Positions 40,580 through 62,848 of a stretch of DNA of 64,000 bases are shown here, in pieces. Each line of letters opens with the position of its first letter. Position 1 is the stretch's first letter. The notes under the pieces were generated by a model that was given only the letters and a program-made list of their open reading frames with translations, was not told where the DNA came from and searched no databases. Both the position numbers and the translations under genes were made by a program. The stretch is taken from positions 1-64,000 of the forward strand of contig JAEKDP010000005.1 in assembly GCA_016521575.1 (NCBI GenBank), in the 5' to 3' direction. This stretch comes from Rhodobacteraceae bacterium F11138. GTDB taxonomy: Bacteria > Pseudomonadota > Alphaproteobacteria > Rhodobacterales > Rhodobacteraceae.

Positions 40580-40740
40580 TCCCACCGACATGCGGTGCGG
40601 GCAAGGAATCGGCGTGCCGGAATGGGGCGGCCAGATGTCGCCAGACCGGAAGGCTGTGCGCACCTGGAACATCACGGCGACATCCCAGAGCCGGTTGTCA
40701 CCATACATAATGAAACGACACAGAGACCACTCTTAGGGTG

Positions 40741-41472
40741 TCATTCTGCCCCCAGCCGGAACGGACCCTTACTGGCGATGCCATCATGCGCTGTGAAACG
40801 TTGTATTGCCGCTTCCACGTGATGGCGGCAAGCGACGCGCAACTTGTCGGCGTCGCCCTTTTCCAACGCGTGCAAGATGGCGTCGTGCTCTACCACAACC
40901 TCAAGATAGCGGTGGCGCGTATGGTGGCTTTTCAGCCGCATAACCTGTAGCAAAACGCCGGTCTGACGATATCGGTCCGAAATCACGTCGTTTCTCATCA
41001 GATCGATAATCCTGTTGTGGAACTGGGCGTCCAGGGGTAAAAATCCTCTGATCATTTCGTCGTTATCGGCCTGTTCCCCCAGTCGCCGCATTTCATCGTT
41101 TATGGCGTGCAGTTCTGTCATGGTTTTTTCGTCAACCCGCTCGACGATCTCCTGTGCGCACCCAATCTCGAGGGCGAGTCGGAACCAGAAATTCTGGACA
41201 GTTCTTTCTGGGTCTATGGTGCTGACGAATGTGCCGCTGCGCGGCTTGACCTCGATCATGCCAATTTCAATGAGACGTTGAATGGCCTCTTTTACGGGTG
41301 TTTTGCTGACGCCCATGTCATAGGACAGCTGTGTCAGATCAAGCCTGACGCCGGGTGCAAGTGTACCGTTCAGGATAAGCTCGAGAAGCCTTTCATAGAC
41401 TTGATCTCGAATTGAGTTGCTTTCGATTCTCAGCCCCGAAATGTTCTGCATTCTCACCTTAATCTCCGTCAT
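40741..41472 (-). CDS. GntR family regulator, FCD subfamily, divergent from the KARI-like gene
   Basis: GntR-type regulator, about 243 aa from the ATG at 41472 (41451 is another possible start). The winged helix lies at about residues 20-80 (YERLLELILNGTLAPGVRLDLTQLSYDMGVSKTPVKEAI region), followed by the FCD domain with DAQFHNRIIDL and EHDAILHALEKGDADKLRVACRHHVEAA. It is convergent with the amidohydrolase and divergent from the KARI-like gene, so control of the 41577-50978 cluster is the natural inference. Confidence 0.9.
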   Translation of the reverse strand: MTEIKVRMQNISGLRIESNSIRDQVYERLLELILNGTLAPGVRLDLTQLSYDMGVSKTPVKEAIQRLIEIGMIEVKPRSGTFVSTIDPERTVQNFWFRLALEIGCAQEIVERVDEKTMTELHAINDEMRRLGEQADNDEMIRGFLPLDAQFHNRIIDLMRNDVISDRYRQTGVLLQVMRLKSHHTRHRYLEVVVEHDAILHALEKGDADKLRVACRHHVEAAIQRFTAHDGIASKGPFRLGAE

Positions 41473-41536
41473 TCCTCGACCAACGCGCCGCAGTGACCGC
41501 AAGTTTAGCTTGACTGTCGTGAGTTTGAAAGGATAA

Positions 41537-41558
41537 GAAATCTGAAATATCAGATTTC
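41537..41558. promoter_or_regulatory. long perfect inverted repeat, GntR operator candidate
   Basis: GAAATCTGA (41537-41545) and TCAGATTTC (41550-41558) with a 4-base AATA spacer, centred 29 bases before the KARI-like ATG. The spacing and length suit a GntR dimer. A repressor here would block transcription or early elongation of the cluster. Confidence 0.75.
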
Positions 41559-41576
41559 AATGGGAACGTAGAGACA

Positions 41577-42566
41577 ATGGCCAAGTGGTACTTCGATAAT
41601 GATGCAGATCTGAAATGGCTGCAGGGAAAGACGGTCGGAATCTTCGGCTATGGCAACCAGGGGCGCAGCCAGGCGTTGAACATGCGGGATGCAGGACTAG
41701 ACGTCGTTGTGGGTTCCCGCAGTGATGAATCTGCCAAAAAGTCCCAGGAAGACGGATTTGAAACTCTGCCTTTGGCCGAGGCTGCTGCGAAGGCAGATGT
41801 GTTGTTCATCTTGGTGCCCGACGAAGTCATGCCGCAGATCTACGAGGAAAGTCTCGAACCTGCGCTCAAGCCCGGAGATACACTGGTCTTTGCCAGCGGC
41901 TACAACATACATTTTAAATACATCCAGCCGGGTCCGGAACTGAACGTCATCATGATTGCACCGCGCATGGTCGGGCAGGGGGTGCGGGACACGGTCCTTG
42001 CGGGCACCGGGTTTCCCAGCCTCGTCGCTGTTCATCAGGACGCAGACGGCAAAGCTCAGAATATCATGCTGGCACTTTCTCGGGCAATCGGGTCAACGAA
42101 GATGGGTGTGATCGAATCCAGTTTTGAAGAAGAAACTATCGTGGACCTCTTCCACGAACAGTTTGGATCGCTCCACGCCATAAAGCGCGCGATTGAGGTG
42201 CTGACTGAGGCCGGATGCAGTCCGGAAGCGGCCATGCTGGAAATGTATGCGTCCGGCGAGGTCCGTGAAATCGGACAGTACTACGTCGACCATGGCTTGT
42301 TTGGACAACTGAAGTTGCACTCACGTACGAGCGAATACGGCCAGCTGGTTTACGCACGAGGGAAGCCCGAGCATGAAGAGGCGCACAAAGACCATCTGCG
42401 CGGGATCGTCGCACGCATTCGGGACGGCAGCTTTGCAAAGGAATGGACCGAAGTTCAGGCCAACGGCATGAGCGCAATGAAGGCGGCACAAGAAGAGATC
42501 GCAAACGACCCCATAATGATTGAGGAACGCAAGCTGTACGAGCGGCTGGGTCGCTTTTCGTCTTGA
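41577..42566 (+). CDS. ketol-acid reductoisomerase-like protein with altered active site
   Basis: 329 aa, the length of a class I ketol-acid reductoisomerase (IlvC), with an N-terminal NADPH-binding Rossmann domain (VGIFGYGNQGRSQALNMRDAG, residues 20-40) and the C-terminal knotted helical domain. Canonical IlvC binds NADPH and two Mg ions and rearranges and reduces acetolactate. Two metal ligands are kept (Asp190, Glu194 in VDLFHEQ). Position 107 is Ser in FASGYNIH where IlvC has His, and position 130 is Arg in IAPRMVGQ where IlvC has its catalytic Lys in APKxPG. The Glu230 counterpart is Ser226. Residue numbers for IlvC are from memory of class I enzymes. The neighbours are transport and CoA-transfer genes, not ilvD or ilvH. 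I infer a reductase/dehydrogenase on a different 2-hydroxy or 2-oxo acid. Confidence 0.8.
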   Translation: MAKWYFDNDADLKWLQGKTVGIFGYGNQGRSQALNMRDAGLDVVVGSRSDESAKKSQEDGFETLPLAEAAAKADVLFILVPDEVMPQIYEESLEPALKPGDTLVFASGYNIHFKYIQPGPELNVIMIAPRMVGQGVRDTVLAGTGFPSLVAVHQDADGKAQNIMLALSRAIGSTKMGVIESSFEEETIVDLFHEQFGSLHAIKRAIEVLTEAGCSPEAAMLEMYASGEVREIGQYYVDHGLFGQLKLHSRTSEYGQLVYARGKPEHEEAHKDHLRGIVARIRDGSFAKEWTEVQANGMSAMKAAQEEIANDPIMIEERKLYERLGRFSS

Positions 42567-42576
42567 TGTGTGTGTA

Positions 42577-42614
42577 GGGAAAGGCTGTCTCGGAGGAGAG
42601 ATCAGCCCTTTTCC
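42577..42614 (+). terminator. hairpin between KARI-like and TAXI genes
   Basis: GGGAAAGGCTG (42577-42587) can pair with CAGCCCTTTTCC (42603-42614) with small bulges, around a GGAGGAGAG loop. It sits 10 bases after the KARI-like stop. It may attenuate or separate expression of the reductase and transporter genes. Confidence 0.45.
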
Positions 42615-42655
42615 GAAGAAAATCTTGAGAAGAATACGATGATTGGGAGGAATAG

Positions 42656-43819
42656 ATGAGAATTTTCACAACAGGGCTGACCTTGGCCTGCATCGCCGGA
42701 ACTGCGGTATTCGCAGCGGATTCCACGTTGCCGCGACAACTGGCGATTACATCCTATGGCACCGGTTCGTCCGGTTATAACCAGTCCGTGGCCATCGGCG
42801 CGGCGTTGCAGGACAATCGGGGTGTCAACTTGCGCATTCTGCCCGCCAAGAACGATGTGGCCCGGACTGAGCCGTTGCGTCAGGGCAAAGTTGATTTCTC
42901 GATGAACGGCGTCGGAGGAACATTCATGGCGCAGGAAGGTGTCTACCAGTTTGGAGCCAAGTCCTGGGGACCGATGCCGATCAGGGCATTGGCATCGAAC
43001 AACAGCGGTACCGTTGGCATTTCCTTGGGTGTCGCCGCTGAAGTTTGCGAACAGGTCGGCAAGCCGAATTGCGAAGGCTTCACTTATGCTGATCTCAAGG
43101 GGAAGCGCGTGGCCTGGTTGAAGGGAGCGCCGTCAATGAATGTCAATGCGCAGGCCTATCTGGCCTACGCAGGCCTGACGACGGATGACGTTGAATTGGT
43201 TGAATTCGGCGGGTTCGGCCCCTCTTGGAAAGGGATGGTGGACGGCAGTGTCGATGCGGCCATCGCCTCGACCAGTTCGGGAAAAGGCTATGAAGCGGCG
43301 AGCGGTCCACGTGGCCTGTTCTGGCCGGAAATCGATCCGAACAACGCCGAAGGTTTGGCCCGGATGCAGGAGGTCGCACCCTTCTTCACCCCGATGGTCG
43401 CTCAGGTGGGCGCGACAATCGACGGCACCGATGGTGTCCCAACGGCGGGTTATGCCTTTCCCGTGCTGATGACATTGGCCGACCGCGAGCCGGAACTTGT
43501 CTATGGCGTCACCAAGGCGATGTTCGAGCTTTACGACAGCTACAAGGGGACCTCGCCGGGAATTGATGGATGGTCGCTGGATAATCAGGCGTTGGAGTGG
43601 GTGGTACCCTATCACGAAGGTGCGATCCGGTACTTCCGTGAGGTGGGTGTCTGGACTGACGCGCATGACGCTCATAACGCCAAGATGATAGAACGCCAGC
43701 AGGTGCTCAACACGGCGTGGAAGGCACTTGAGGCAGAGAATCCGGACAACTGGGATGAAACATGGGCCGAGCGGCGACGCGAGGCACTGGATGCGGCCGA
43801 TTTTCCGGTTTTCTACTGA
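42656..43819 (+). CDS. TAXI family TRAP transporter solute-binding protein
   Basis: Periplasmic binding protein of TAXI type, 387 aa, with a signal peptide (MRIFTTGLTLACIAGTAVFA) and the family pattern LAITSYGTGSSGYNQSVAIGAAL, then LRILPAKNDVARTEPLRQGKVDFSMNGVGG. TAXI proteins bind organic acids such as 2-oxoglutarate or glutamate and hand them to a fused TRAP permease, which is encoded next. A GGGAGGAAT site precedes the start. Confidence 0.9.
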   Translation: MRIFTTGLTLACIAGTAVFAADSTLPRQLAITSYGTGSSGYNQSVAIGAALQDNRGVNLRILPAKNDVARTEPLRQGKVDFSMNGVGGTFMAQEGVYQFGAKSWGPMPIRALASNNSGTVGISLGVAAEVCEQVGKPNCEGFTYADLKGKRVAWLKGAPSMNVNAQAYLAYAGLTTDDVELVEFGGFGPSWKGMVDGSVDAAIASTSSGKGYEAASGPRGLFWPEIDPNNAEGLARMQEVAPFFTPMVAQVGATIDGTDGVPTAGYAFPVLMTLADREPELVYGVTKAMFELYDSYKGTSPGIDGWSLDNQALEWVVPYHEGAIRYFREVGVWTDAHDAHNAKMIERQQVLNTAWKALEAENPDNWDETWAERRREALDAADFPVFY

Positions 43820-43832
43820 ACCTATCTATCGT

Positions 43833-43855
43833 TTCGGGGGCTTGAGGCCCCCGAA
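43833..43855 (+). terminator. strong hairpin between TAXI binding protein and permease
   Basis: Perfect 9-bp stem TTCGGGGGC (43833-43841) with GCCCCCGAA (43847-43855), 5-base loop, 13 bases after the binding-protein stop and 26 bases before the permease start. Likely sets a higher level of the binding protein than of the permease. Confidence 0.7.
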
Positions 43856-43881
43856 CTTCCCCTCAGGTCGGAACATCACAG

Positions 43882-45906
43882 ATGACCCAATCGATACAGA
43901 AATCTGCGGCCGAGCACGCGGTGCGGTCTCCTGCTGATACCGGCAATGCTGCACTTGATGCGGAATTGTCGGTCGGCAAATTACGCTTGCACGGGATGAT
44001 GCAGTGGTACGTCATTGCGGCCACTCTGGCGGCAATTTTTGCTTCGGTAAACCAGTTGTTCAACCTGCGACTGGGTAACTACACCATGCTTGAGGGTCAG
44101 TATCTGTACATTTTGGCCGGCTTGTTCCTGTCCGTCACATTTGTCAGCTTCCGTGTAGATGGCAAGGCATCCGCCCACGCCCCTTGGTACGATTGGATAC
44201 TGGCATTGGCGTCTCTGATCGTGGCTGTCTATTTCGTCGCAACGGCCAGCGAGAGTCTGGACAGCGGCTGGGAGTATGCCGCACCTCAACGGGCGGTCGT
44301 GTTCTCGGTTGCGCTCTATGTTCTGGTCCTCGAGGCGACGCGGCGGGCAGGTGGCTGGGTGCTGTTCGGGATCGTCGCGACCTTTTCATTGTATCCGACC
44401 TTTGCCGGATCCATGCCCGATCCTCTTTCGGGATTCCAAAGCCCGTTTCTGGATGTCGTTCCCTATTTCATGATCTCGTCCGAAGCTTCGTTCGGAATCC
44501 CGATGAACGCGTTTGGTAACCTCGTTATTGGCTTCGTGCTGTTCGGGGCGATCCTGCAATTCACAGGTGGTGGCAAGTTCTTCAACAATCTGGCGCTCGC
44601 GCTTGTGGGACAATTTCGTGGCGGTGCGGCCAAGGTCGCGATTTTCGCCTCGGGGTTCATGGGCTCGATGTCCGGTTCAGTGATCTCGAATGTTCTGACC
44701 ACTGGCGCAGTTTCAATTCCGGCGATGAAACGCACGGGGTTTTCGGCGCGCTATGCTGCGGCAACCGAAGCCTGCGCCTCGACCGGTGGCGTGCTGATGC
44801 CTCCGATCATGGGGGCCACCGCTTTCGTCATGGCGGCGTGGCTGTCGCGGCCCTATGTCGATATCATGATGGCTGCGGCCGTGCCGTCGATCCTGTATTA
44901 TTTTGGATTGTTCGTGCAAATTGATGCCTATGCCGCGCGCAATGACCTGCGAGGCTTGCCGCGAACTGAACTCCCCCGTCTCAAGGAAACAATGCGGGGC
45001 GGCTGGCAGTACATCGTCGTCTTTGCCGTGTTGATCTTTCTGATGGTCGCGTTCCGTTGGGAAACCACGGCGCCGTTTTACGCAATCGTTCTGCTTTTGG
45101 TGATCAACCAGTTTTCCCATCATGATCGATTTACGCGTCAGGGCTTCATGGACATGATTGTTTCGGTCGGGAGAACTTTGGGCGAGTTGACCGCAATCGT
45201 TCTGGGTATCGGGATCATCGTTGGATCATTCCAGGCGACTGGGCTTACAGGCCCACTGGCAACCGAGCTGATTTTTATGGCTGGCGACAACGTGTTCGTT
45301 TTGCTTGTCATGGGCGCGATCACCAGCTTTGTCTTCGGCATGGGTATGCCGGTGACAGCCTGCTACATCTTTCTTGCCGTGGTGCTGGCGCCGACACTAG
45401 TCCAAGCTGGTTTGAACGAGTTGGCGGTGCACTTGTTTATCCTTTATTGGGGGATGGTCAGCTTCATTACCCCGCCGGTGGCAATTGGTGCATTCGGTGC
45501 GGCGTCTTTGGCAGGCGCGTCGCCAATGCGCACAGGTGTCGAAGCGATGCGGCTTGGTGGAGTCATCTATATCGTGCCTTTCTTTTTTGTCTTGAACCCC
45601 GCGCTGATCGGCGAGGGAACGTTTTCGGAAATGGCAATTTTGTTTGTTGGCGCATTGATCGGAATCTGGCTGATATCAGCCGCTCTGCAAGGATATGTCA
45701 GTTTCTTTGGTGCCCTGCCTGATGGCGCAAAGGGTGTAGTGCTACGGGTTTTGTTGTTCGGGGGCGGAATGCTAATCGCTGCTCCGACCGGGGATGCTTT
45801 CGGGCTGCTGCACCTGGCTGTGAGCGGCGCAGGCGTCGCCTTGGCGATCCTGCCGCTGGCCGCTGCGCGCCGGAACCACGCACCGGTTGCAGCCGCCGCT
45901 GAATAG
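43882..45906 (+). CDS. TRAP transporter fused permease (4TM + 12TM, TAXI type)
   Basis: Polytopic inner-membrane protein, 674 aa, with hydrophobic segments from about residue 42 to the end. The N-terminal part corresponds to the small DctQ-like unit and the rest to the DctM-like large unit. Markers are GGKFFNNLALALVGQFRGGAAKVAIFASGFMGSMSGSVISNVLTTGAVSIPAMK in two parts (about residues 230-285), then ATEACASTGGVLMPPIMGATAFVMA and FGMGMPVTACYIFLAVVLAP. It acts with the preceding binding protein in sodium- or proton-driven uptake. Confidence 0.92.
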   Translation: MTQSIQKSAAEHAVRSPADTGNAALDAELSVGKLRLHGMMQWYVIAATLAAIFASVNQLFNLRLGNYTMLEGQYLYILAGLFLSVTFVSFRVDGKASAHAPWYDWILALASLIVAVYFVATASESLDSGWEYAAPQRAVVFSVALYVLVLEATRRAGGWVLFGIVATFSLYPTFAGSMPDPLSGFQSPFLDVVPYFMISSEASFGIPMNAFGNLVIGFVLFGAILQFTGGGKFFNNLALALVGQFRGGAAKVAIFASGFMGSMSGSVISNVLTTGAVSIPAMKRTGFSARYAAATEACASTGGVLMPPIMGATAFVMAAWLSRPYVDIMMAAAVPSILYYFGLFVQIDAYAARNDLRGLPRTELPRLKETMRGGWQYIVVFAVLIFLMVAFRWETTAPFYAIVLLLVINQFSHHDRFTRQGFMDMIVSVGRTLGELTAIVLGIGIIVGSFQATGLTGPLATELIFMAGDNVFVLLVMGAITSFVFGMGMPVTACYIFLAVVLAPTLVQAGLNELAVHLFILYWGMVSFITPPVAIGAFGAASLAGASPMRTGVEAMRLGGVIYIVPFFFVLNPALIGEGTFSEMAILFVGALIGIWLISAALQGYVSFFGALPDGAKGVVLRVLLFGGGMLIAAPTGDAFGLLHLAVSGAGVALAILPLAAARRNHAPVAAAAE

Positions 45907-45966
45907 AGGCGCAGGTGTCATCACCAGCCGGGCACCGGTTTCGCAAATGAGATGGGAGTAGGATGC

Positions 45967-46779
45967 ATGCAGGACGACCTTGACCGACTGGCGGCCTACG
46001 TCATTTCAGGTATGCGCGTCGCAGTCCCAGTAGACTACGGTGGGGTTCCGATGGCCCTGACGCGCCGGTTGATCACGCGCGGCGAAGCGCGTGACCTCCA
46101 TTTGATCTGCGTGCCCACCGGTGGCTTGCAGGTCGATATGCTGATCGGTGCCGGACTGGTTGCCATGGTTGAGACCAGCGCGGTTTCTCTGGGTGAAGCC
46201 GGAGGAGCCCCACGTTTTAATAACGCAGTCCGGTCTGGCGAGGTGCGTATGCTGGATGCGACCTGCCCTGCAATTCATGCCGGGTTACTTGCTGCTCAAA
46301 AGGCCGTTCCATTCATGCCAATGCGCGGTTTGCTTGGGTCGGATGTTCAAGCCTATCGTGAGGATTGGAAGGTCATTGACAATCCACTTGCAGAGGACGC
46401 TGATCCGATCGTTCTAATCCCGGCGATTCATCCGGATGTGGCGGTATTTCATGCGCCGATGGCGGATCGCGCCGGGAATGTCTGGATTGGCCGGCGGCGA
46501 GAACTGGCGGCCATGGCGTATGCGTCAGGGACGACGCTGGTAACGGTCGAACGGATCGTTGAGACGGATTTTATGGCCGATGAGACCACCGCCGCAGGCA
46601 CGTTGCCGGCCCTATATGTCACCGACATAGCACAGGCCGAGCGAGGTGCGTGGCCGCACGGGCTGTGGGGTACCTATGATCCGGACTCCGCCGAGTTGCG
46701 CCGCTATGCTGCTGCTGCGAGAACGGCTGAGGGCTTCGCCGAGTATATGGCAACAACCAAAGGCGAGACAGCCCCATGA
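45967..46779 (+). CDS. CoA-transferase alpha-type subunit
   Basis: Class I CoA-transferase subunit A, 270 aa, of the GctA/IpdA-like group. Family features: an N-terminal VISGMRVAVPVDYGGVPMALTRRLI, LICVPTGGLQVDMLIGAG, and VAVFHAPMADRAGNVWIG. The start at 45967 is preferred to 45952 because GGGAGTAGGA then forms the ribosome site. The next subunit overlaps its stop by ATGA. Together they would transfer CoA to an acid or, as in IpdAB, hydrolyse a ring; the substrate is unknown. Confidence 0.85.
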   Translation: MQDDLDRLAAYVISGMRVAVPVDYGGVPMALTRRLITRGEARDLHLICVPTGGLQVDMLIGAGLVAMVETSAVSLGEAGGAPRFNNAVRSGEVRMLDATCPAIHAGLLAAQKAVPFMPMRGLLGSDVQAYREDWKVIDNPLAEDADPIVLIPAIHPDVAVFHAPMADRAGNVWIGRRRELAAMAYASGTTLVTVERIVETDFMADETTAAGTLPALYVTDIAQAERGAWPHGLWGTYDPDSAELRRYAAAARTAEGFAEYMATTKGETAP

Positions 46780-47552
46780 GTACGTCCGCAATTGCGCGTG
46801 AGATTCTGATTGTCAGTATTGCCCGATTGTTGCGCGGAACGCGTCATGTTGCCGTGGGTGCCGCGTCGCCGATCCCGGCGGCGGGGGCGATGCTGGCCCG
46901 GGCGTTGGCCGAAGCAACGGATGAGCCAAGGCTACGGATTTCGATCCTTGGATCTGTCGAGCACAACTTTTTTACGAATGGCTCGGCCGAGTTGTTCGAT
47001 TGCGCCGGGCAGGGACGTATTGACGCCTTCTTTTTGGGCGGTGGTCAGATTGACGGCGCGGGCAATGTCAATCTGGTAGGGGTCGGCGAATATCCCGAGA
47101 TGAAGGTGCGCTGGCCAGGTTCCTTTGGCTCTGCATATCTGTATTTCACCATTCCGCGGGTGATCCTGTTTCGGGAAGAACACACGCCGCGGGTAATGGT
47201 GAAGAGCGTTGATTTCATCAGCGCACCCGGTACCAGCGCGCCTGACGTCTGGCGCAAGGGTGGCCCATATGCTCTCTTGAGCGGACGCGGTTTGTTCATG
47301 TTTGACAAGGACAAACCCGGCTTCCGACTTGAAAGTCTGCACTCCGGACAGACGCTTGCCGAGATTCGTGATGCCACCGGTTTTGAATTTGGGCATGACG
47401 AAAACCCGCCCGAAACCGCGCCACCTGATGCGCCCACACTGGCGTTGCTTCGGGGGCGTGTGCTGGATGAATTACACGAAACCTATCCCGATTTTGCCGC
47501 TGGATTGCGCGCTGCGATTCACGGAACCGAACCACAGGAAATCACAAGATGA
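46776..47552 (+). CDS. CoA-transferase beta-type subunit
   Basis: Class I CoA-transferase subunit B, 258 aa. A candidate catalytic Glu lies in SILGSVEHNFF (GctB has its Glu in a comparable stretch), followed by DAFFLGGGQIDGAGNVNLVGVG and KSVDFISAPG. The presence of this Glu leans towards a true transferase rather than an IpdAB-type hydrolase, though the alignment is by eye. It overlaps both neighbouring genes by 4 bases. Confidence 0.83.
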   Translation: MSTSAIAREILIVSIARLLRGTRHVAVGAASPIPAAGAMLARALAEATDEPRLRISILGSVEHNFFTNGSAELFDCAGQGRIDAFFLGGGQIDGAGNVNLVGVGEYPEMKVRWPGSFGSAYLYFTIPRVILFREEHTPRVMVKSVDFISAPGTSAPDVWRKGGPYALLSGRGLFMFDKDKPGFRLESLHSGQTLAEIRDATGFEFGHDENPPETAPPDAPTLALLRGRVLDELHETYPDFAAGLRAAIHGTEPQEITR

Positions 47553-48733
47553 CGGAAAATACCGGATCCCTATCTCACCTCAAGGTGATCGATCTCAGTC
47601 GCGTGTTGGGCGGTCCCTATGCCGGTCAAATCCTGGCTGATCACGGGGCCGATGTGATCAAGGTCGAACCGCCCGCCGGGGACGAAACCCGCGGCTGGGG
47701 GCCTCCGTTTCTGGAAGGGACAGCCAGCTATTTCCTAGGCGTGAACCGCAACAAGCGGGGCATGTCGCTGGATCTCTCAAAGCCAGCAGGGCAGGAATTG
47801 CTCGCCCGTTTGCTGGAAGATGCAGACGTCCTGATTGAGAATTTCAAGACTGGGACAATGGACAAATGGGGGTTGTCTCACGCAGAGATCGAACGCCGGT
47901 TCCCCAAACTCGTGCATTGCCGTGTGTCCGGATTTGGCGCCGATGGACCGATGGGCGGTCTGCCCGGCTACGATGCGGCGGTTCAGGCCAGTTGCGGCAT
48001 CATGAGCGTAAATGGCGAGAAGGACGGAGACGCGTTGCGTGTTGGTCTGCCAGTCGTGGACATGGCAACCGGACTGAACGCAGTGATCGGGATACTGATG
48101 GCGCTTGCCGAACGTGGTCAGAGTGGCAAAGGCCAGTTCGTCGAGACGGCTCTTTATGACTGTGGTGTTTCCTTGCTGCACCCGCATCTGCCGAACTATT
48201 ACCTGTCGGGCAAAGTGGCTGGCCCATCAGGGAACGCACATCCCAACATTTGCCCTTACGATACGTTTTCAACGCGGACTGATCCACTGTTTCTCGCAGT
48301 AGGCAACAACCGGCAATTCGCAACATTGTGCCGTATCATTGATCGCCCCGATTTATCCGCGGATGAACGGTTCGCTGACAATAGCGTCCGCAATCAAAAC
48401 CGGGATGCGTTGAAGATCGAGTTGGAAGAGGCGATGCGTGCCCATGACTGTCATGAGCTCGCAGATGAATTGATCCAGGCTGGCGTACCTTGTGGTGCGG
48501 TGCGGTCCATTGATCAGGTGGTCGATGACCCACACACCCGCCACCGTGAAATGGTTGTGGATATAGGAGCCTATCGCGGGACGGGCAGCCCGATCAAGCT
48601 GTCACGCACGCCGGCATCCTATCGTCGGGCACCGCCAGCTTTTGCCCAACACAATCCAGAGATCTTGCAAGGATTGGATGCCGACCCGGCAGATCACCCC
48701 AGAGCAGAGTCTTATCCCGACAAGCAACCCTGA
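47549..48733 (+). CDS. CaiB/BaiF family CoA-transferase (class III)
   Basis: Class III CoA-transferase, 394 aa. Blocks: LKVIDLSRVLGGPYAGQILADHGADVIKVEPP at the N-terminus in two parts, NRNKRGMSLDL, DVLIENFKTGTMDKWGL, GFGADGPMGGLPGYDAAVQA, and the catalytic Asp in PVVDMATGLNA (Asp171). It is coupled to the class I subunits by ATGA overlap. Two different CoA-transferase systems in one operon suggest two acids, or two CoA steps on one substrate. Confidence 0.92.
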   Translation: MTENTGSLSHLKVIDLSRVLGGPYAGQILADHGADVIKVEPPAGDETRGWGPPFLEGTASYFLGVNRNKRGMSLDLSKPAGQELLARLLEDADVLIENFKTGTMDKWGLSHAEIERRFPKLVHCRVSGFGADGPMGGLPGYDAAVQASCGIMSVNGEKDGDALRVGLPVVDMATGLNAVIGILMALAERGQSGKGQFVETALYDCGVSLLHPHLPNYYLSGKVAGPSGNAHPNICPYDTFSTRTDPLFLAVGNNRQFATLCRIIDRPDLSADERFADNSVRNQNRDALKIELEEAMRAHDCHELADELIQAGVPCGAVRSIDQVVDDPHTRHREMVVDIGAYRGTGSPIKLSRTPASYRRAPPAFAQHNPEILQGLDADPADHPRAESYPDKQP

Positions 48734-48805
48734 GTTTGGCCAAGCGTCTATCGACCTGCCCACACGCGCCCGGTCGCGTGTCCGAAAAGTAAATGAGGAA
48801 ACCCT

Positions 48806-50356
48806 ATGAACGGCGCTGATCTACTTTGTGAAACCCTTTTGGCGAATGGCATCGACACGTGTTTCGCCAATCCGGGCACATCCGAGATGCATTTTGTCGC
48901 GGCCTTGGATCGCCAACCACGTATGAATTGTGTTCTGGGGCTGAGCGAAGGTGTGGTGACAGGTGCCGCAGATGGATATGCCCGGATGGCTGGCAAGCCC
49001 GCCGCGACGCTTCTGCATCTGGGTCCGGGTCTCGCCAACGGGTTGGCCAACCTGCACAATGCGCGACGAGCAGGCTCGCCGGTTGTCAACATCGTTGGGG
49101 ACCACGCAACATATCATCTGCCGCTCGACGCTCCGTTGACCTCTGATGTCGCAGCGTTGGCGCGACCCATGTCGCATTGGTTGGGTCGGGCTGAAACCGG
49201 TGACAGTGTCGGACTGCGCTCGACCGAGGCCATAGTGGCGTCACGACAATTCTACGGGCAAATTGCGACGCTCATTCTTCACGCGGATGCGGCCTGGAGT
49301 GATACGACCGCCGAGCTAGGTGAACCCGCCCCGCACTGGGTACCGACTCCTCCCGACGCCGACCGAATCCGCGCAGCGGCGGACGTTCTGCGAACAAAAC
49401 GGAATGTTACCATTCTGGTGTCGGGGCACGCACTTCGGGAACCACAACTGAACCAGCTGAGCAGGATCGCGACCCAGACAGGCGCCCGCCTGATGGCTCA
49501 ACAATCAAATGCACGGATGCAACGCGGACAAGGCCGAGCGGATATTGAACGTGTTCCCTATCCCATTGATCAGGCGCTCGCCGCTTTTGCAGATACCGAA
49601 TGCGTTGTTCTGATCGGCGCCCCCGAACCGGTCGCGTTTTTTGCCTATCCCGGGAAACCTGGACGCATCTTGCCGAAAACCTGTCAGGTCATGAACCTTG
49701 GTGAACCCGAGAATGATATCGTCGCCATAATCGACGCTTTGGCGCAGGAAACCGGTGCTGAATCTTCGTGCACCCCCGAACCCACCAGTCACGCAATACC
49801 CGACTTGCCGACCGGTCCGCTCACACCAGATAGCATTGCGATCGCCGTCGCACGATGCCTGCCGGAAAATGCTGTGATCTGCGACGAGTCTGTATCTTCA
49901 GGGCGCAATTTCTTCACACACACACATGGTGCCGCGCCGCATGACTTTCTTCAATTGACCGGCGGGGCAATTGGTATCGGCATGCCGCTAGCCGTGGGCG
50001 CTGCCATTGCCTGTCCGGACAGGAACATATTGTCTCTGCAGGCAGACGGCAGCGGGATGTATACGGTTCAGGCGTTGTGGACACAGGCGCGCGAGAGATT
50101 GAATGTGGTGACCGTCATCTTTGCCAACCAGCGCTATCAGATATTGCATGGCGAGCTGCAGAATGTCGGCGCCGCCGCTCCGGGTGAAAACGCGCGACGC
50201 ATGCTGGATTTGGACGATCCTGCACTCGACTGGGTCAGCATCGCCAAAGGAGTGGGCGTAGCCGCGGCGCGAGCGGAAACCCCGGCGCAATTCTCTGATT
50301 TGCTGTCTGCAGCGTTTCGCAATAAAGGCCCGTTCCTGATCGAAGCTATGATCTGA
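48806..50356 (+). CDS. thiamine-diphosphate enzyme of the acetolactate synthase large-subunit family
   Basis: ThDP-dependent enzyme, 516 aa, three-domain layout. N-terminal PYR domain: ANPGTSEMHF, catalytic Glu48 in LGLSEGVVTGAADGYARMAGKPA. C-terminal PP domain: LTGGAIGIGMPLAVGAAIA and ADGSGMYTVQALWTQARERLNVVTVIFAN, the ThDP/Mg motif with ADGS in place of the common GDGS. This subgroup resembles proteins called acetolactate synthase large-subunit homologue, close to benzoylformate decarboxylase and sulfopyruvate decarboxylase. No small subunit follows. Decarboxylation of a 2-oxo acid is the likely reaction. Confidence 0.87.
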   Translation: MNGADLLCETLLANGIDTCFANPGTSEMHFVAALDRQPRMNCVLGLSEGVVTGAADGYARMAGKPAATLLHLGPGLANGLANLHNARRAGSPVVNIVGDHATYHLPLDAPLTSDVAALARPMSHWLGRAETGDSVGLRSTEAIVASRQFYGQIATLILHADAAWSDTTAELGEPAPHWVPTPPDADRIRAAADVLRTKRNVTILVSGHALREPQLNQLSRIATQTGARLMAQQSNARMQRGQGRADIERVPYPIDQALAAFADTECVVLIGAPEPVAFFAYPGKPGRILPKTCQVMNLGEPENDIVAIIDALAQETGAESSCTPEPTSHAIPDLPTGPLTPDSIAIAVARCLPENAVICDESVSSGRNFFTHTHGAAPHDFLQLTGGAIGIGMPLAVGAAIACPDRNILSLQADGSGMYTVQALWTQARERLNVVTVIFANQRYQILHGELQNVGAAAPGENARRMLDLDDPALDWVSIAKGVGVAAARAETPAQFSDLLSAAFRNKGPFLIEAMI

Positions 50357-50408
50357 AGATACGGGAACGCACTGACACTCATAACAAACTCAAGAAAGAC
50401 AGCTCCCT

Positions 50409-50978
50409 ATGACCAATCTACCGATCAGCCGGTTTCCCGTGCCAAAGCTCGCGGATCTACCAGATGATATTCGCACTCGTATTGAGGAAGTTCAGGAAAA
50501 GTCGGGTTTTGTGCCCAATGTCTTCCTGACTCTGGCACATCGTCCGGATGAATTCCGGGCCTTTTTTGCCTACCATGACGCACTCATGGAAAAGCCGGGT
50601 CCGATCACCAAGGCCGAACGCGAAATGATCGTGGTGGCCACCAGCAATATGAACCAGTGCCAGTATTGTGTGGTGTCTCATGGCGCAATTTTGCGAATTC
50701 GCGCGAAGGATCCGTTGATTGCAGATCAGGTCGCCGTGAATTACCGCAAGGCTGACATTACTTCACGCCAGCGGGCCATGCTGGATTTTGCCGTCAAGGT
50801 ATCTGCCAATGCTCAGGAAGTTGGCGAAGCTGATCTGAATGCGCTGCGTACGCATGGGTTCGATGATGAGGATATCTGGGATATCGCTGCCATCGCTGCG
50901 TTCTTTGCGCTCTCAAATCGCATGGCAAATGTCACCAACATGAGGCCGAACGCTGAATTCTACGCAATGGGCAGATAA
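50409..50978 (+). CDS. AhpD/carboxymuconolactone decarboxylase-family peroxidase-related protein
   Basis: Helical CMD-domain protein, 189 aa, with the AhpD-type CxxC motif NQCQYCVVSHG (Cys84, Cys87, His91) and the subgroup N-terminus SRFPVPKLADLPDDIRTRI. Such proteins are alkylhydroperoxidase-like thiol reductases. It is the last gene of the cluster, 52 bases after the ThDP gene. A detoxifying or thiol-redox role is family-based. Confidence 0.88.
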   Translation: MTNLPISRFPVPKLADLPDDIRTRIEEVQEKSGFVPNVFLTLAHRPDEFRAFFAYHDALMEKPGPITKAEREMIVVATSNMNQCQYCVVSHGAILRIRAKDPLIADQVAVNYRKADITSRQRAMLDFAVKVSANAQEVGEADLNALRTHGFDDEDIWDIAAIAAFFALSNRMANVTNMRPNAEFYAMGR

Positions 50979-51017
50979 GGGTGTTGTCACGTTCGCGGTC
51001 CTGAGGTTGCGGGTTCA

Positions 51018-51363
51018 TTGATCCGGGCGCAGGCGGTGTCGATGCTGGTCGAACGGATCAGCTACAAACGCCACCGCTTGCCGGCTCGGATCATCTCTCA
51101 CGTTGTCTGGCTCTACGCCCGGTTCAACTTGAGCCTGCGCGCGGTTGACGAGCTGATGCTGGAACGTGCGTGGACGTTTCGTATGAAACGCTTTGGCGTT
51201 GTGCCCAAACGGAGTGTGACGGACAAGCTTTGATCCTACGGCGCTGCGAAGCGCGAGGTCGCACCCGGCCTTGATCACTGGTCGCACAAAGACCTCGCTG
51301 ATCGCGCCGAAAACAGCCACCTGCCTTATCGAAAACGGCAGCAAGCATCGCTTGACCTGTGAA
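51018..51363 (+). pseudogene. IS6-family transposase remnant with frameshift, internal deletion and nonsense codon
   Basis: The frame from 51018 starts with ISYKRHRLPARIISHVVWLYARFNLSLRAVDELMLER, an IS6/IS26-type N-terminus. At about 51168 the next family block (VDVSYETLW) is present but in another frame. The middle DDE core is missing. The first frame resumes at VTDKL, then TGA where the family has Arg, then SYGAAKREVAPGLDHWSHKDLADRAENSHLPYRKRQQ, the family C-terminal region with its catalytic Glu in RAENSH. It stops at 51363. So three separate lesions exist, and the element is dead. Confidence 0.8.
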
Positions 51364-51560
51364 CAACAAGCCTTCGCTGACGGCCACAGTTTTACGTGAC
51401 AATGCCGTTGGCAATGCCTCTGCGGCGGCGGCAATCTGACAAAGCCGCATAGCGCCGCAGGAACGGCATATGCGGTCCAATGCATATGCGGTCCAATCAT
51501 GTCGGCACGACTTGGCATTTCGGCTGCACATTCATGAAAACTACCCCTGTTTGCAAGTCC

Positions 51561-51593
51561 CGTCTGAGTGGCAGCGTAGGCCGCACTCAGACG
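51561..51593. repeat. 10-bp inverted repeat
   Basis: CGTCTGAGTG (51561-51570) with CACTCAGACG (51584-51593), 13-base loop. No T-run. It is the first of two stem-loops upstream of the small membrane protein gene at 51719. Confidence 0.7.
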
Positions 51594-51636
51594 GTTCCGA
51601 AACACCGAACCTGTAACCTCGTGTCCTGGCGGCGTC

Positions 51637-51678
51637 TGGCAGCAGGCCGCAACAGTGGAACCATGCGGCCTGCTGCCA
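51637..51678. repeat. 15-bp perfect inverted repeat
   Basis: TGGCAGCAGGCCGCA (51637-51651) with TGCGGCCTGCTGCCA (51664-51678), 12-base loop. The stem is very stable. It ends 40 bases before the ATG at 51719 and 26 bases before its ribosome site. It could be a rho-independent-like stem without U-tract, a leader structure, or the arms of a small mobile repeat. Confidence 0.75.
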
Positions 51679-51718
51679 CGTTATCCCGTCAAGCAATGCA
51701 ACACAGGAGATATGTTTA

Positions 51719-59237: not shown

Positions 59238-60734
59238 ATGCTGGACCTGACGCTTCAGGATTGGCGGTCGAAAGCCGCGTCGCTCACACTGCCGAACCGG
59301 GCCTTCATCGACGGCAAATTCGTCGATGCGGTGTCGGGCAGGACCTTTGACAGCATCAACCCGGCCACCGGCGCGGTTCTGACCGGCGTGGCGGAATGCG
59401 ACGCGGCGGATGTGGACCTGGCGGTGGCCGCCGCACGGCGTGCTTTTGAGGATGGGCGCTGGTCGCGCATGGCGCCGGGGGACCGCAAGGCGGTGCTGTT
59501 GAAGCTGGCCGATCTGATCCGCGCCAACCTCGAAGAAATGGCGTTGCTCGACTGTCTCGACATGGGCAAGACGATCACCGACGCCGCGACCGTGGACGCC
59601 CCCGGCTCGGCGCATTTCTTCCAGTGGTATGCCGAGGCCATCGACAAGATCTATGACGAGGTCGCCCCCACCGGCCCCGGCGACCTGGCGCTGGTGCGCC
59701 GCGTGCCGCTGGGGGTTGTGGGCGCGGTGGTGCCGTGGAACTTCCCGCTCGACATGGCGACGTGGAAGTCGGCGGCGGCGCTGGCGGCGGGCAATTCGGT
59801 GGTGCTGAAACCGGCCGAGCAATCGCCGCTTTCGGCGCTGCGGCTGGCGGAACTGGCGGCCGAGGCGGGCGTGCCCGACGGCGTGTTCAACGTGGTGCCG
59901 GGCTATGGCGCGACGGCGGGCAAGGCACTGGGGCTGCACATGGATGTGGATTGCCTGGCCTTCACCGGCTCGACCGCCACGGGCAAGCTGTTCATGCAGT
60001 ATTCCGGGCAATCCAACCTGAAACAGGTCTGGCCCGAAACCGGCGGCAAAAGCCCCAATATCGTCTTTGCCGATTGCGGTGATCTTGATGCGGCGGCGGA
60101 CATGGCGGCCTTCGGCATCTTCTTCAACCAGGGCGAGGTCTGCTCGGCCAATTCACGGCTCTATGTCGAACGTTCGGTCAAGGATGCGCTGGTGGAAAAG
60201 CTGGCGGAACGGGCGCAGGGTATGCAGCCGGGCGACCCGCTGGACCCGGACTCAAAAATGGGCGCCATCGTCGATGAAAAGCAGACCCAGGGCATCATGC
60301 GCTTTGTCGAAGAGGGCAAGACCAGCGCCGATCTGATCACCGGCGGCGAACGTGTGCAGATCGACGGCAAGGGCTGTTTCGTGCAGCCAACCATCTTCAG
60401 CGATGTGGCCCAGGACAACCCCCTGGCACGCGACGAGATCTTTGGCCCGGTGCTGTCGGTCATTCCCTTTGACAAGGAGGAAGACGCCGTGACCATGGCC
60501 AATGACTCGATCTATGGGCTGGCGGCTTCGGTCTGGACGGACGACCTGAGCCGCGCGTGCCGGGTTTCGGACCGGCTGAACGTGGGGACGGTGTCGGTGA
60601 ACACGGTCGACGCGCTGTCGGCGCAAACCCCGTTCGGCGGGATGAAGCAATCCGGTTTCGGCCGCGATCTGTCGCTGCATTCCTTCGACAAGTACACCGC
60701 CCTGAAAACCACCTGGATCAAATACCGCGCTTGA
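59238..60734 (+). CDS. aldehyde dehydrogenase (PuuC-like)
   Basis: NAD(P)-dependent aldehyde dehydrogenase, 498 aa. VPWNFPLDMATWKSAAALAAGN binds the cofactor, the general base is Glu267 in VWPETGGKSPN, and the nucleophile is Cys302 in NQGEVCSANSR. C-terminal PFGGMKQSGFGRD. It is most like gamma-glutamyl-gamma-aminobutyraldehyde dehydrogenase PuuC. It would oxidise the aldehyde released by amine dehydrogenation in this cluster. AGGAAGGATAGCAG precedes the start. Confidence 0.92.
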   Translation: MLDLTLQDWRSKAASLTLPNRAFIDGKFVDAVSGRTFDSINPATGAVLTGVAECDAADVDLAVAAARRAFEDGRWSRMAPGDRKAVLLKLADLIRANLEEMALLDCLDMGKTITDAATVDAPGSAHFFQWYAEAIDKIYDEVAPTGPGDLALVRRVPLGVVGAVVPWNFPLDMATWKSAAALAAGNSVVLKPAEQSPLSALRLAELAAEAGVPDGVFNVVPGYGATAGKALGLHMDVDCLAFTGSTATGKLFMQYSGQSNLKQVWPETGGKSPNIVFADCGDLDAAADMAAFGIFFNQGEVCSANSRLYVERSVKDALVEKLAERAQGMQPGDPLDPDSKMGAIVDEKQTQGIMRFVEEGKTSADLITGGERVQIDGKGCFVQPTIFSDVAQDNPLARDEIFGPVLSVIPFDKEEDAVTMANDSIYGLAASVWTDDLSRACRVSDRLNVGTVSVNTVDALSAQTPFGGMKQSGFGRDLSLHSFDKYTALKTTWIKYRA

Positions 60735-60779
60735 CGCGCCATGCGGCCCCGCCGCCCAGCTACCCCAAGGAGACGACCA

Positions 60780-62848
60780 TGCGCGATCCCCGCTATGACA
60801 TTCTGTTCGAGCCGATGCAGATCGGCCCCGTCACCGCCAAGAACCGCTTTTACCAGGTGCCCCATTGCAACGGGGGCGGCTATCGCGACCCGTCGGCGGC
60901 GGCCGAGATGCGCGGGATCAAGGCCCAGGGCGGATGGGGCGTGATCTTTACCGAACAATGCGAAATGCACCACACATCGGAAATCACACCCTTCATCGAA
61001 TTGCGGCTGTGGGAAGACAAGGACATCCCGCAATTGCGCCGCATGTCGGAAAAGATGAAGGAACACGGCGCGCTGGCGGGCATCCAGTTGGCCTATTCCG
61101 GGATCAACGGCCCGAACCTCTATACCAAGGAGGTGCCGCTGGCGCCCTCGTCGCTGCCGATCCGCACCTTCACCAACGATCCGGTGCAGGCGCGCGCGCT
61201 GTCAAAGGCCGAGATCAAGGATCTACGGCGCTGGTTCGTCAATGCTGCCAAGCGGTCGAAGGACGCGGGTTTTGACCTGATCTGCCTCTATGGCGCGCAT
61301 GGCTTCGGCATCTTCCAGCATTTCCTGAGCCGCGCAACCAACCAGCGCGACGACGAATACGGCGGCAGCCTGGAAAACCGGTCGCGTTTCGTGAACGAGG
61401 TGATCGCTGACATGCGCGACGCGGTGGGCGACACCATGGGCATCACCCTGCGCGTCAGCCTGGACGAAACCATCGGAGAGCTGGGCTTTTCCAACGCCGA
61501 GGTGCGCGACTTCGTCGAGATGAACAAGGATCTGCCGGACCTCTGGGACCTGGCGCAGGGCACGTGGGAGGATTGCTCCGGCCCGTCGCGCTTCAAGGAG
61601 GAAGCGGCGCAGGAACAGCTGGTGCGCGGCATCCACGAGCTGACGGATAAGCCCATCGTCGGCGTCGGGCGCTTCACCTCGCCCGATGTGATGGCGAAAA
61701 TGGTCAAATCCGGCACGCTGGATTTCATCGGCTGCGCGCGGCCCTCGATCGCCGATCCGTTCCTGCCCAAGAAGGTCGAGGAAGGCCGGATCGAGGACAT
61801 CCGCGAATGTATCGGGTGCAATATCTGCATCACCGGCGACATGACCATGTCGATCAGCCGCTGCACCCAGAACCCCACCTTCATGGAGGAATGGCGCAAG
61901 GGCTGGCATCCGGAAAAGATGAACACCAAGGGCGACAGCGACAACGTGCTGATCATCGGCTCTGGCCCGGCCGGGCTGGAAGCGGCCTGGGCGCTGTGCC
62001 GCCGGGGTTATGACGTGGCGGTGGCCGAAGCGCGCGACGTGATCGGTGGACGGGTGACGCGCGAACGCGCGCTGCCGGGGCTCAGCGCCTGGGGCAGGGT
62101 CGTGGACTATCGCGACTATCAACTGTCGCAGCGCCCCGGTGTGGAGATCTATCGCGAAAGCCCGCTGAGTGCCGAAGACGTGATGGAGTTTGGGTTCCAG
62201 AACGTGGCGATTGCCACGGGTGCCACCTGGCGGCGGGATGGTGTTGCGCGTCAGCACGTGGTGCCGATGCCGATTGCCGAGGGCGCCAAGGTGTTCACCC
62301 CCGACGACCTGATGGACGGCACGGTGCCGGGCGGCAACGTGGTGATCTATGACGACGATCACTATTACATGGGCGGCGTGCTGGCCGAACTGTTGGTCAA
62401 ACAGGGCGCGAAGGTGACGCTGATTACCCCGTCGGCCTTTGTGTCGGACTGGACCAACAACACGCTGGAACAGGCGACGATCCACGCGCGGCTGGACGAC
62501 ATGGGCGTGGATATCGTGCTGAACCGTGGCGTGACCGAAATTGCCGCCGATCACGTGGTGTCCAATTGCGTCTATACCGGCAAGACACGGGCCTATGAGG
62601 TCGATGCGGTGGTCATGGTCGCCTCGCGCGCAGGCAATGACGGGCTGTACCACGACCTGATGGCGCGGCAGGAGGATTGGGCCGATGCGGGCATCCGGTC
62701 GGTCAAGCTGTTCGGCGATGCCGAGGCCGCGGGTCCGATTGCCTGGGCCACCTATGCCGGGCACCGCTATGCGCGGGAACTGGATGGCGAAGACATTGGC
62801 GACGATCTGCCCTTCCGCCGCGAAATCACCGAACTGGCCGCGGAATGA
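60780..62848 (+). CDS. trimethylamine/dimethylamine dehydrogenase-family flavoprotein
   Basis: FMN and [4Fe-4S] amine dehydrogenase-type protein, 689 aa. Domain 1 (1-380) is an old-yellow-enzyme barrel; domains 2 and 3 carry an ADP-binding fold with GSGPAG (394-399). Cys30 in QVPHCNG matches the cysteine that links FMN covalently in TMADH. The cluster ligands are Cys344, Cys347, Cys350 and Cys362. TMADH's amine-binding aromatics are only partly kept: Gln60 replaces Tyr60, Trp256 matches Trp264, and Asp354 replaces Trp355. Gln at 60 recalls dimethylamine dehydrogenase. The longer frame upstream (to 60557) lies in the aldehyde dehydrogenase gene; AAGGAG precedes this start. Expected reaction: oxidative N-demethylation or deamination, electrons to ETF. 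Confidence 0.88.

Follow-up and report, generated by a model that had tools for sequence, protein, structure and literature searches.

What is known of the systems closest to the one described here comes from several enzymes. The 6jcv protein of Saccharolobus solfataricus has been published as a cofactor-bispecific ketol-acid reductoisomerase (KARI). In a study of Streptomyces KARIs, weak reduction of simple 2-oxo acids, pyruvate and 'HP' (which we take to be hydroxypyruvate) is described, and its authors suggest that some KARI paralogues may be better fitted to the reverse reaction (PMC4353338). Among two-subunit proteins of the class I coenzyme A (CoA)-transferase fold, IpdAB is described as hydrolysing a ring, with no CoA transfer detected with short acyl substrates, and the transferase residue Glu54 of GctB is not conserved in it (PMC5380842). 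Here we consider a set of nine genes that brings relatives of both kinds together, at 40741–50978 of a 64,000-nucleotide stretch (the window; contig JAEKDP010000005.1, our C24) of the 4.48-Mb genome of Rhodobacteraceae bacterium F11138 (GCA_016521575.1). It comprises a GntR regulator gene on the minus strand and eight co-directional genes on the plus strand. By sequence, the operon draws on enzyme families already known, two of which are present in a non-canonical form. We tentatively read it as a catabolic operon, under the control of GntR and inducible by its substrate, that serves for the uptake and breakdown of one hydroxylated, possibly branched, organic acid, an interpretation that we think quite possible, if a little short of probable.

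Conservation and probable regulation of the nine-gene set

The nine-gene set is real and conserved. A single-protein scan of genome contigs gave 16 loci, the best of which, in Sedimentitalea xiamensis (L006), has all nine genes in the same order at 84–95% identity; all nine are likewise present, again in the same order, at L052 (genome G255), at 75–88% identity. Between the window and L006 or L052, nonsynonymous divergence over the nine genes is 0.03–0.19 and synonymous divergence ranges from 0.59 to saturation. A KARI of the window type (E <=5e-96) was found in three of 394 family genomes: the window's own, G255 (87% identity) and G322 (50%). The matches that follow, at about 39%, are no closer than ordinary IlvC. 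Both of the other genomes found with this KARI at 85% identity or more have the nine genes ordered alike; in G322 (L053), the KARI gene stands without GntR, CoA-transferase-fold subunit A (CoAT-A), CaiB, thiamine diphosphate (ThDP) enzyme, AhpD or TAXI genes in the 16 kb examined. A phylum-wide search for such a KARI (E 1e-95) gave the window genome as the sole match among 398, and because the best 21 of the 398 rows, those listed, were all from its own family, it says little about other groups. The earlier note on this DNA had specified beforehand that a lack of co-conservation in relatives would count against its proposal; since the set is kept in L006 and L052, the proposal survives.

The regulator gene (GntR/FCD type; 40741–41451, minus strand; PF00392 and PF07729 above cut-off) diverges from the operon, and its start was placed at the ATG at 41451, which is common to the three genomes. 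Searched with 40741–41430, without the first seven residues, it has 85% identity in L006, 76% in L052 and 38% in L060. The 22-nucleotide (nt) operator-like palindrome GAAATCTGAAATATCAGATTTC (41537–41558) lies 18 nt upstream of the KARI start; allowing up to three mismatches, it occurs at a single place in the window (0.00 expected), as does its 20-nt core in the whole genome, and it sits in a 27-nt block identical across all three operons. An 18-nt core of the palindrome, with one mismatch, was found at nearly the same spacing upstream of a related KARI gene (of the KARI-2 group defined below) in Sulfitobacter dubius (L060), where gene and palindrome variant face the GntR of 38% identity, and was not found at L007, L008, L009, L053 or L061. 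From the L060 match, and the five other loci without one, it seems that regulator, operator and KARI form a unit met once outside the operon. Consensus scanning of 40600–51700 gave two promoter-like sites against a shuffle mean of 4.8, and 13 terminator-like sites against 11.2 in shuffles, and as neither is an excess the ends of the transcript are left unplaced. The GntR regulator and strong palindrome to which the earlier note drew attention are thus both real, the one divergent and the other at a single genomic place, and the nine-gene set is probably regulated as a unit.

The eight plus-strand genes, from KARI to that for the AhpD-like protein, occupy 41577–50978, their positions and families being as previously noted, and Pfam and NCBIfam matches agree with the assigned gene names at family level. 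The 4-base overlaps earlier described as several number only two (subunits A/B, and B/CaiB), the remaining intergenic gaps being 45–89 bases. Second and third in order are genes for a TAXI-family solute-binding protein of the tripartite ATP-independent periplasmic (TRAP) type (42656–43819; TIGR02122, 170.6 bits, cut-off 84.35) and a fused TRAP permease (43882–45906; TIGR02123, 549 bits, cut-off 320.65), which together have the make-up of a TAXI-TRAP system. Further along the window, at 59238–62848, a PuuC-like aldehyde dehydrogenase gene adjoins one for a FadH/OYE-like oxidoreductase.

A second group of KARI-like proteins

The first gene of the operon (41577–42566) encodes a protein with the NAD(P)-binding and C-terminal domains of KARI. 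The KARI-like assignment of the earlier note is borne out as to domains (PF07991, PF01450 and also TIGR00465 are above cut-off, PRK05479 below), with the qualification that the protein belongs to a second, non-canonical group, placed away from canonical IlvC and outside any ilv context. In an unrooted tree of 23 sequences, this group, here called KARI-2, comprises the proteins of the window, L006, L052, L060, L007, L008, L009 and L024, those of the haloarchaeal loci L125 and L126, Saccharolobus 6jcv and L010; its split from canonical IlvC has an ultrafast bootstrap value of 100, support within the group being uneven (68–100).

With residues numbered as in 7q03, the metal ligands D191, E195, E227 and E231, together with S252, are retained in KARI-2 proteins of the window type (L010 differs at two of these five positions, and L024 at one). 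Lys131 is replaced by Arg in every KARI-2 member, and His108 by Ser in the window-type members, 6jcv and L010, while L024 and the haloarchaeal proteins still have His. Both residues are present in all canonical KARIs of the tree and both are changed in the window protein; as the ligands are retained but Lys131 and His108 replaced, it appears that the metal site stays and the substrate side changes. Loss of isomerisation is known from active-site mutants of Escherichia coli KARI. The window protein is therefore like Class I KARIs, and 6jcv in particular, in its fold, its four metal ligands and Ser252, with PRMVG, YASGE and HSxTS features in common with 6jcv, and unlike canonical IlvC in K131R and H108S (as is 6jcv), in its catabolic gene set, and in coming from a genome that has its own IlvC elsewhere.

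Some other KARI-2 genes adjoin catabolic genes, which speaks for a catabolic role here. At L060 the neighbours are genes for a DctP-TRAP system, a glycerate kinase (the model being below cut-off) and an aldehyde dehydrogenase. Genes of the group named 'ilvC' on plasmids of Halomarina and Haladaptatus (L125:7983-8978 and L126:7965-8993) lie near at least three genes of mandelate-racemase/muconate-lactonizing type (sugar-acid-type dehydratases), dehydrogenases, cupins and a sugar ATP-binding cassette (ABC) transporter.

Two further KARI loci may be recorded here. In Sulfitobacter sp. DSM 110093 (L061:10001-10855), a KARI-2 sequence matching residues 44–327 only lies between insertion sequence elements and near a separate TAXI-TRAP pair. 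On a plasmid of Rhodococcus pseudokoreensis (L127:5045-12897), a GntR gene stands opposite a canonical-type KARI gene, followed by genes for 3-hydroxyisobutyrate dehydrogenase, aldehyde dehydrogenase, enoyl-CoA hydratase and a CoA-transferase; this is a second, separate KARI and CaiB cluster.

The CoA-transferase-fold pair and the core around it

Subunits A (45952–46779) and B (46776–47552) resemble IpdAB (the COCHEA-CoA hydrolase), GctAB and AibAB in their two-subunit class I CoA-transferase fold, as judged from matches of A to 6coj (E 2e-20) and of B to 6co6 (E 1e-8). Their residues were surveyed at 57 loci (leaving out duplicates and any sequence with a stop or with under 75% coverage), giving 46 distinct A and 43 distinct B sequences. 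Cys105 of A, in D-x-T-C-P-A or close variants, is present in all 46, the window's included, and single-sequence and profile alignments agree in matching it to a position occupied by Glu in 6co6_A and by Ala in the variant 6coj_A. This position is presumably Glu105 of IpdA, so that the pair has Cys where the hydrolase, a distant relative, has Glu. In a single-sequence alignment Ile57 of B pairs with Cys56 of AibB (to which we presume a functional role), and I, V, L or M stands there in 43 of 43 sequences; because the profile alignment shifts that stretch, the mapping is uncertain. Before E72, no Glu or Cys of B is conserved at 95% among the 43 sequences except E9, near the N-terminus. The catalytic Glu of class I CoA-transferases (Glu54 of GctB; PMC5380842) was not found in B, the exact mapping of the site being ambiguous, and IpdAB and apparently the window pair are alike in being without it.

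Because B has no candidate Glu, and an invariant Cys of A takes the place of the Glu of IpdA, cleavage of a C–C bond is favoured for the pair. It is less likely to be a transferase than to be an enzyme of a third, Cys type that cleaves C–C bonds or has some other non-transferase activity. The 'two CoA-transferase systems' of the earlier note were given up, the class I-like pair having no candidate transferase Glu in B and an invariant Cys in A. CoAT-A matches occur in 71 of 385 genomes of the class, the window's own included (E 1e-45); the Cys-type pair is widespread there, and its neighbours vary (enoyl-CoA hydratase and CoA ligase, methylmalonyl-CoA mutase, sulfite exporter).

The next gene (47549–48733) encodes a class III (CaiB/Frc-type) protein with a PF02515 score of 413.5 bits and, in a VDMATG motif, an Asp171 present in 18 of 18 sequences, which we take to be the equivalent of Asp169 of Frc; this protein is plausibly a CoA-transferase. 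It is followed by a ThDP enzyme gene (48806–50356) whose product belongs by score to NF005760 (the PRK07586 ThDP family; 758 bits, cut-off 363). The closest solved structures are benzoylformate decarboxylases (BFDs), at 148 bits only. Glu48 and His71, which none of 12 sequences compared is without, align with what we take to be the Glu and first active-site His (His70) of BFD, and there is no His in the stretch of the presumed second one (His281; the aligned sequences being BFD variants). The earlier description of this protein as acetolactate synthase-like fails: the whole protein reaches 99 bits with TIGR00118, the model for IlvB, where 538 would be needed to pass, and has no small-subunit gene nearby as an acetohydroxyacid synthase would, and the NF005760 family name is no evidence of acetolactate synthesis. 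A relative with 60.7% identity is encoded opposite a TAXI-TRAP pair in Pseudochrobactrum (L129), and further relatives stand beside GabT-like, RidA or ABC transporter genes, all of them catabolic settings. A lyase of 2-hydroxyacyl-CoA or oxalyl-CoA type was considered and dropped, the profile matches being to NF005760 and benzoylformate decarboxylase, with no direct comparison to 2-hydroxyacyl-CoA lyase made. In the same genome, a 571-residue frame (G000:C12:351495-353036) has a weak two-piece TIGR00118 match patterned like that of the window ThDP gene, of which it is possibly a paralogue. The last gene (50409–50978) encodes an AhpD-like (CMD, CxxC) peroxidase-related protein (TIGR01926, 225 bits, cut-off 81.8).

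These five proteins form a core that is met elsewhere. CoAT-A occurs at 60–80% identity in 14 plasmid records, 11 of which (four from Paracoccus denitrificans) have CaiB, ThDP and AhpD-like matches within about 11 kb of it, and the core is found in records of Paracoccus, Cereibacter, Sagittula and Pseudosulfitobacter. In Sulfitobacter THAF37 (L057) there was no ThDP gene among the best 40 of 83 matches nor in the annotation, a molybdenum (Mo) enzyme and an AhpD-like protein being encoded nearby; Diaphorobacter (L059) has a ThDP gene of its own, with AhpD not among the best 25 of 34 matches; and Pseudorhodobacter turbinis has the ThDP enzyme at 58.5%, AhpD not being among the matches listed. 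At family level, nine of 248 genomes have CoAT-A (E 1e-40): the window's own, three of Paracoccus type (L100–L102), a variant (L103), and four at 50–53% in which no CaiB or ThDP match was found in the stretch. Among the loci examined, KARI and core are together only in the three TAXI operons.

The Paracoccus-type operon (PDEN_RS22910 to RS22865), for which we found no pathway name, has the A, B, CaiB, ThDP and AhpD-like genes in the same relative order, at about 65–81% identity. It differs in having ABC uptake and an IclR regulator where the window has TAXI-TRAP and GntR. The four of the 11 core-bearing records that were examined closely also have genes for a 2-hydroxyacid dehydrogenase, a class II aldolase, an FGGY kinase and a BisC-like Mo-enzyme, with rhodanese in three, and no KARI annotated in the stretch; the dehydrogenase gene comes after CaiB, whereas KARI is first in the window operon. 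Since the dehydrogenase is present in these sister operons and KARI is not, what the core receives from the KARI is most likely a 2-oxo or 2-hydroxy-3-oxo acid. Operons of this type were seen at L054:4913-20795, L055, L056, L058 and L100–L102 (the class II aldolase not being picked in L100). At L103:7192-17665 a variant of the core adjoins genes for an MtnA-like isomerase and a class II aldolase, which suggests a deoxy- or thio-sugar phosphate as its input. The earlier note knew of no named pathway with the window's set, and none was found in literature searches aimed at the gene set, most subscription journals lying outside the search; the core, by contrast, proved not to be special to this cluster.

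A possible pathway and its alternatives

How might such a set of proteins work together? The families found agree with the earlier proposal of a catabolic set combining organic-acid uptake, oxidoreduction, and ThDP and CoA chemistry. GntR would sit on the palindrome before KARI, keeping the operon shut until the acid or its product binds, and the TAXI-TRAP system would import the acid. KARI-2 may then oxidise it with NAD(P), acting as a 2-hydroxyacid oxidoreductase, whether or not a two-metal alkyl/carboxyl shift takes part; the product would be a 2-oxo acid or a 2-hydroxy-3-oxo acid. Next, the class III enzyme would load CoA on to an acid intermediate, with the acyl-CoA product as donor; the Cys-type pair would cleave a C–C bond of that CoA ester in retro-Claisen fashion, by analogy with IpdAB; the ThDP enzyme would decarboxylate or cleave a 2-oxo acid; and the AhpD-like protein may be an accessory redox protein. 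For the last enzyme steps, this order is one that we infer.

Several observations weigh against this scheme. The KARI-2 genes at L007, L008, L009, L053, L060 and L061 have no CoAT-A, CaiB, ThDP or AhpD-like neighbour in the sequence examined (which at L008 and L009 reached 2–3 kb downstream). KARI can thus stand without the core, and the neighbours at L007, including genes for choline-sulfatase and a GMC oxidoreductase, suggest no link. The catalytic site of B is placed differently by the single-sequence and the profile alignment. In addition, as 6jcv is published as a KARI, acetolactate-type KARI chemistry has to be kept in mind.

Three routes to the substrate led nowhere and were abandoned. 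Among the matches listed, plasmid TAXI proteins were at most 41.5% identical, and the three contexts examined were different acid-type clusters; the contexts of AB and CaiB (enoyl-CoA hydratase with CoA ligase, sulfite exporter, methylmalonyl-CoA mutase, MtnA-like isomerase) were too varied; and a sulfur compound, raised by the BisC-like Mo-enzyme, rhodanese and 3-sulfinopropanoyl-CoA desulfinase of some relatives, finds no counterpart in the window operon, which has none of these.

A more specific version of the scheme, which we regard as speculative and on balance unlikely, would make the operon a CoA-thioester counterpart of the D-apionate route, with KARI-2 reversed, a CoA swap by CaiB and Cys-dependent retro-Claisen cleavage by AB. 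A 2,3-dihydroxy-3-branched acid, for example apionate or 2,3-dihydroxyisovalerate, would be oxido-isomerised by KARI-2; CaiB would swap CoA on to the resulting 2-hydroxy-3-oxo acid, and AB, as a third mechanistic type of its fold, would cleave the ester into two small hydroxy acids: from apionate, glycolate and glyceryl-CoA, the CoA returning to CaiB. ApnO/OiaX provides an oxidative, reverse-KARI-like step in acid catabolism, and the likeness to D-apionate oxidoisomerase (ApnO/Oia; EC 1.1.1.421) is in the chemical idea alone. One Rhodobacteraceae strain is reported to grow on D-apiose and has an annotated gene set including D-apionate oxidoisomerase, its route using a kinase and a decarboxylase and not CoA esters (PMC11747546), and, in another report, RuBisCO-like proteins decarboxylate or transcarboxylate/hydrolyse 3-oxo-isoapionate-4-phosphate (PMC6302742).

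Of the alternatives to the organic-acid operon, the one that we take most seriously, while finding it rather doubtful, is that KARI-2 is a plain 2-oxoacid/2-hydroxyacid oxidoreductase with no alkyl shift, standing in for the Paracoccus-type 2-hydroxyacid dehydrogenase; the ThDP enzyme would then decarboxylate the 2-oxo acid, and a dehydrogenase encoded elsewhere would make the acid used by CaiB. This agrees with the sister operons examined, which have that dehydrogenase (in another position) and no KARI, with the changes at Lys131 and His108, with the succinic semialdehyde dehydrogenase-like genes of L100 and L102, and with the reduction of simple 2-oxo acids by Streptomyces KARIs (PMC4353338); but a plain dehydrogenase would hardly seem to require the four metal ligands and Ser252, all of which are retained, and the operon has no aldehyde dehydrogenase. 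It is improbable, to much the same degree as the apionate version, that AB is a true class I CoA-transferase and that two CoA-transferases act in series: the invariant Cys105 of A, and an N-terminal part of B in which E9 is the only conserved Glu or Cys that could serve as nucleophile, outweigh the fold, the PF01144 matches (38.5 bits for A and 25.7 for B, against a cut-off of 23) and the plasmid records that name such proteins 'CoA transferase'. AibAB is a further non-transferase of the same fold, and solved relatives include the non-transferase IpdAB (PMC5380842).

It is very unlikely that the genes came together by chance or are only loosely linked, without serving a single pathway: KARI-2 and the core do occur apart elsewhere, but the nine genes stand in order in three genomes despite high synonymous divergence, and there is one operator-like site. 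We give still less credence to a backup or alternative synthesis of branched-chain amino acids by IlvC and IlvB isozymes. The window KARI does exceed TIGR00465 (ilvC; 252 against 226 bits), and the ThDP protein passes NF005760, whose library name is 'acetolactate synthase large subunit'; against this, PRK05479 is below cut-off for the KARI (294.6 against 336), TIGR00118 is far from reached by the ThDP protein, no small subunit is near, and the genes are coupled to those for uptake and CoA chemistry. Moreover, the genome has a canonical IlvC match on contig C2, IlvB and IlvH matches together on C12 (the latter its only TIGR00119 match), and two IlvD-like matches above cut-off on contigs other than that of the cluster, within which there is no ilvH or ilvD; in all three operon genomes there is a second match over the whole KARI N-domain. 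Because ilvB, ilvH, ilvC and ilvD lie elsewhere, branched-chain amino-acid synthesis fails to explain the set, as had been argued earlier, and a duplicate ilv operon was likewise discarded.

On the organic-acid reading, the names 'ilvC', 'CoA transferase' and 'acetolactate synthase' in plasmid records hide a probable organic-acid pathway. The system offers a testable handle on a role of KARI-2 proteins beyond amino-acid synthesis, in members from Rhodobacterales, haloarchaea and Saccharolobus, and on the chemistry of a Cys-type protein that is widespread and related to the class I CoA-transferases.

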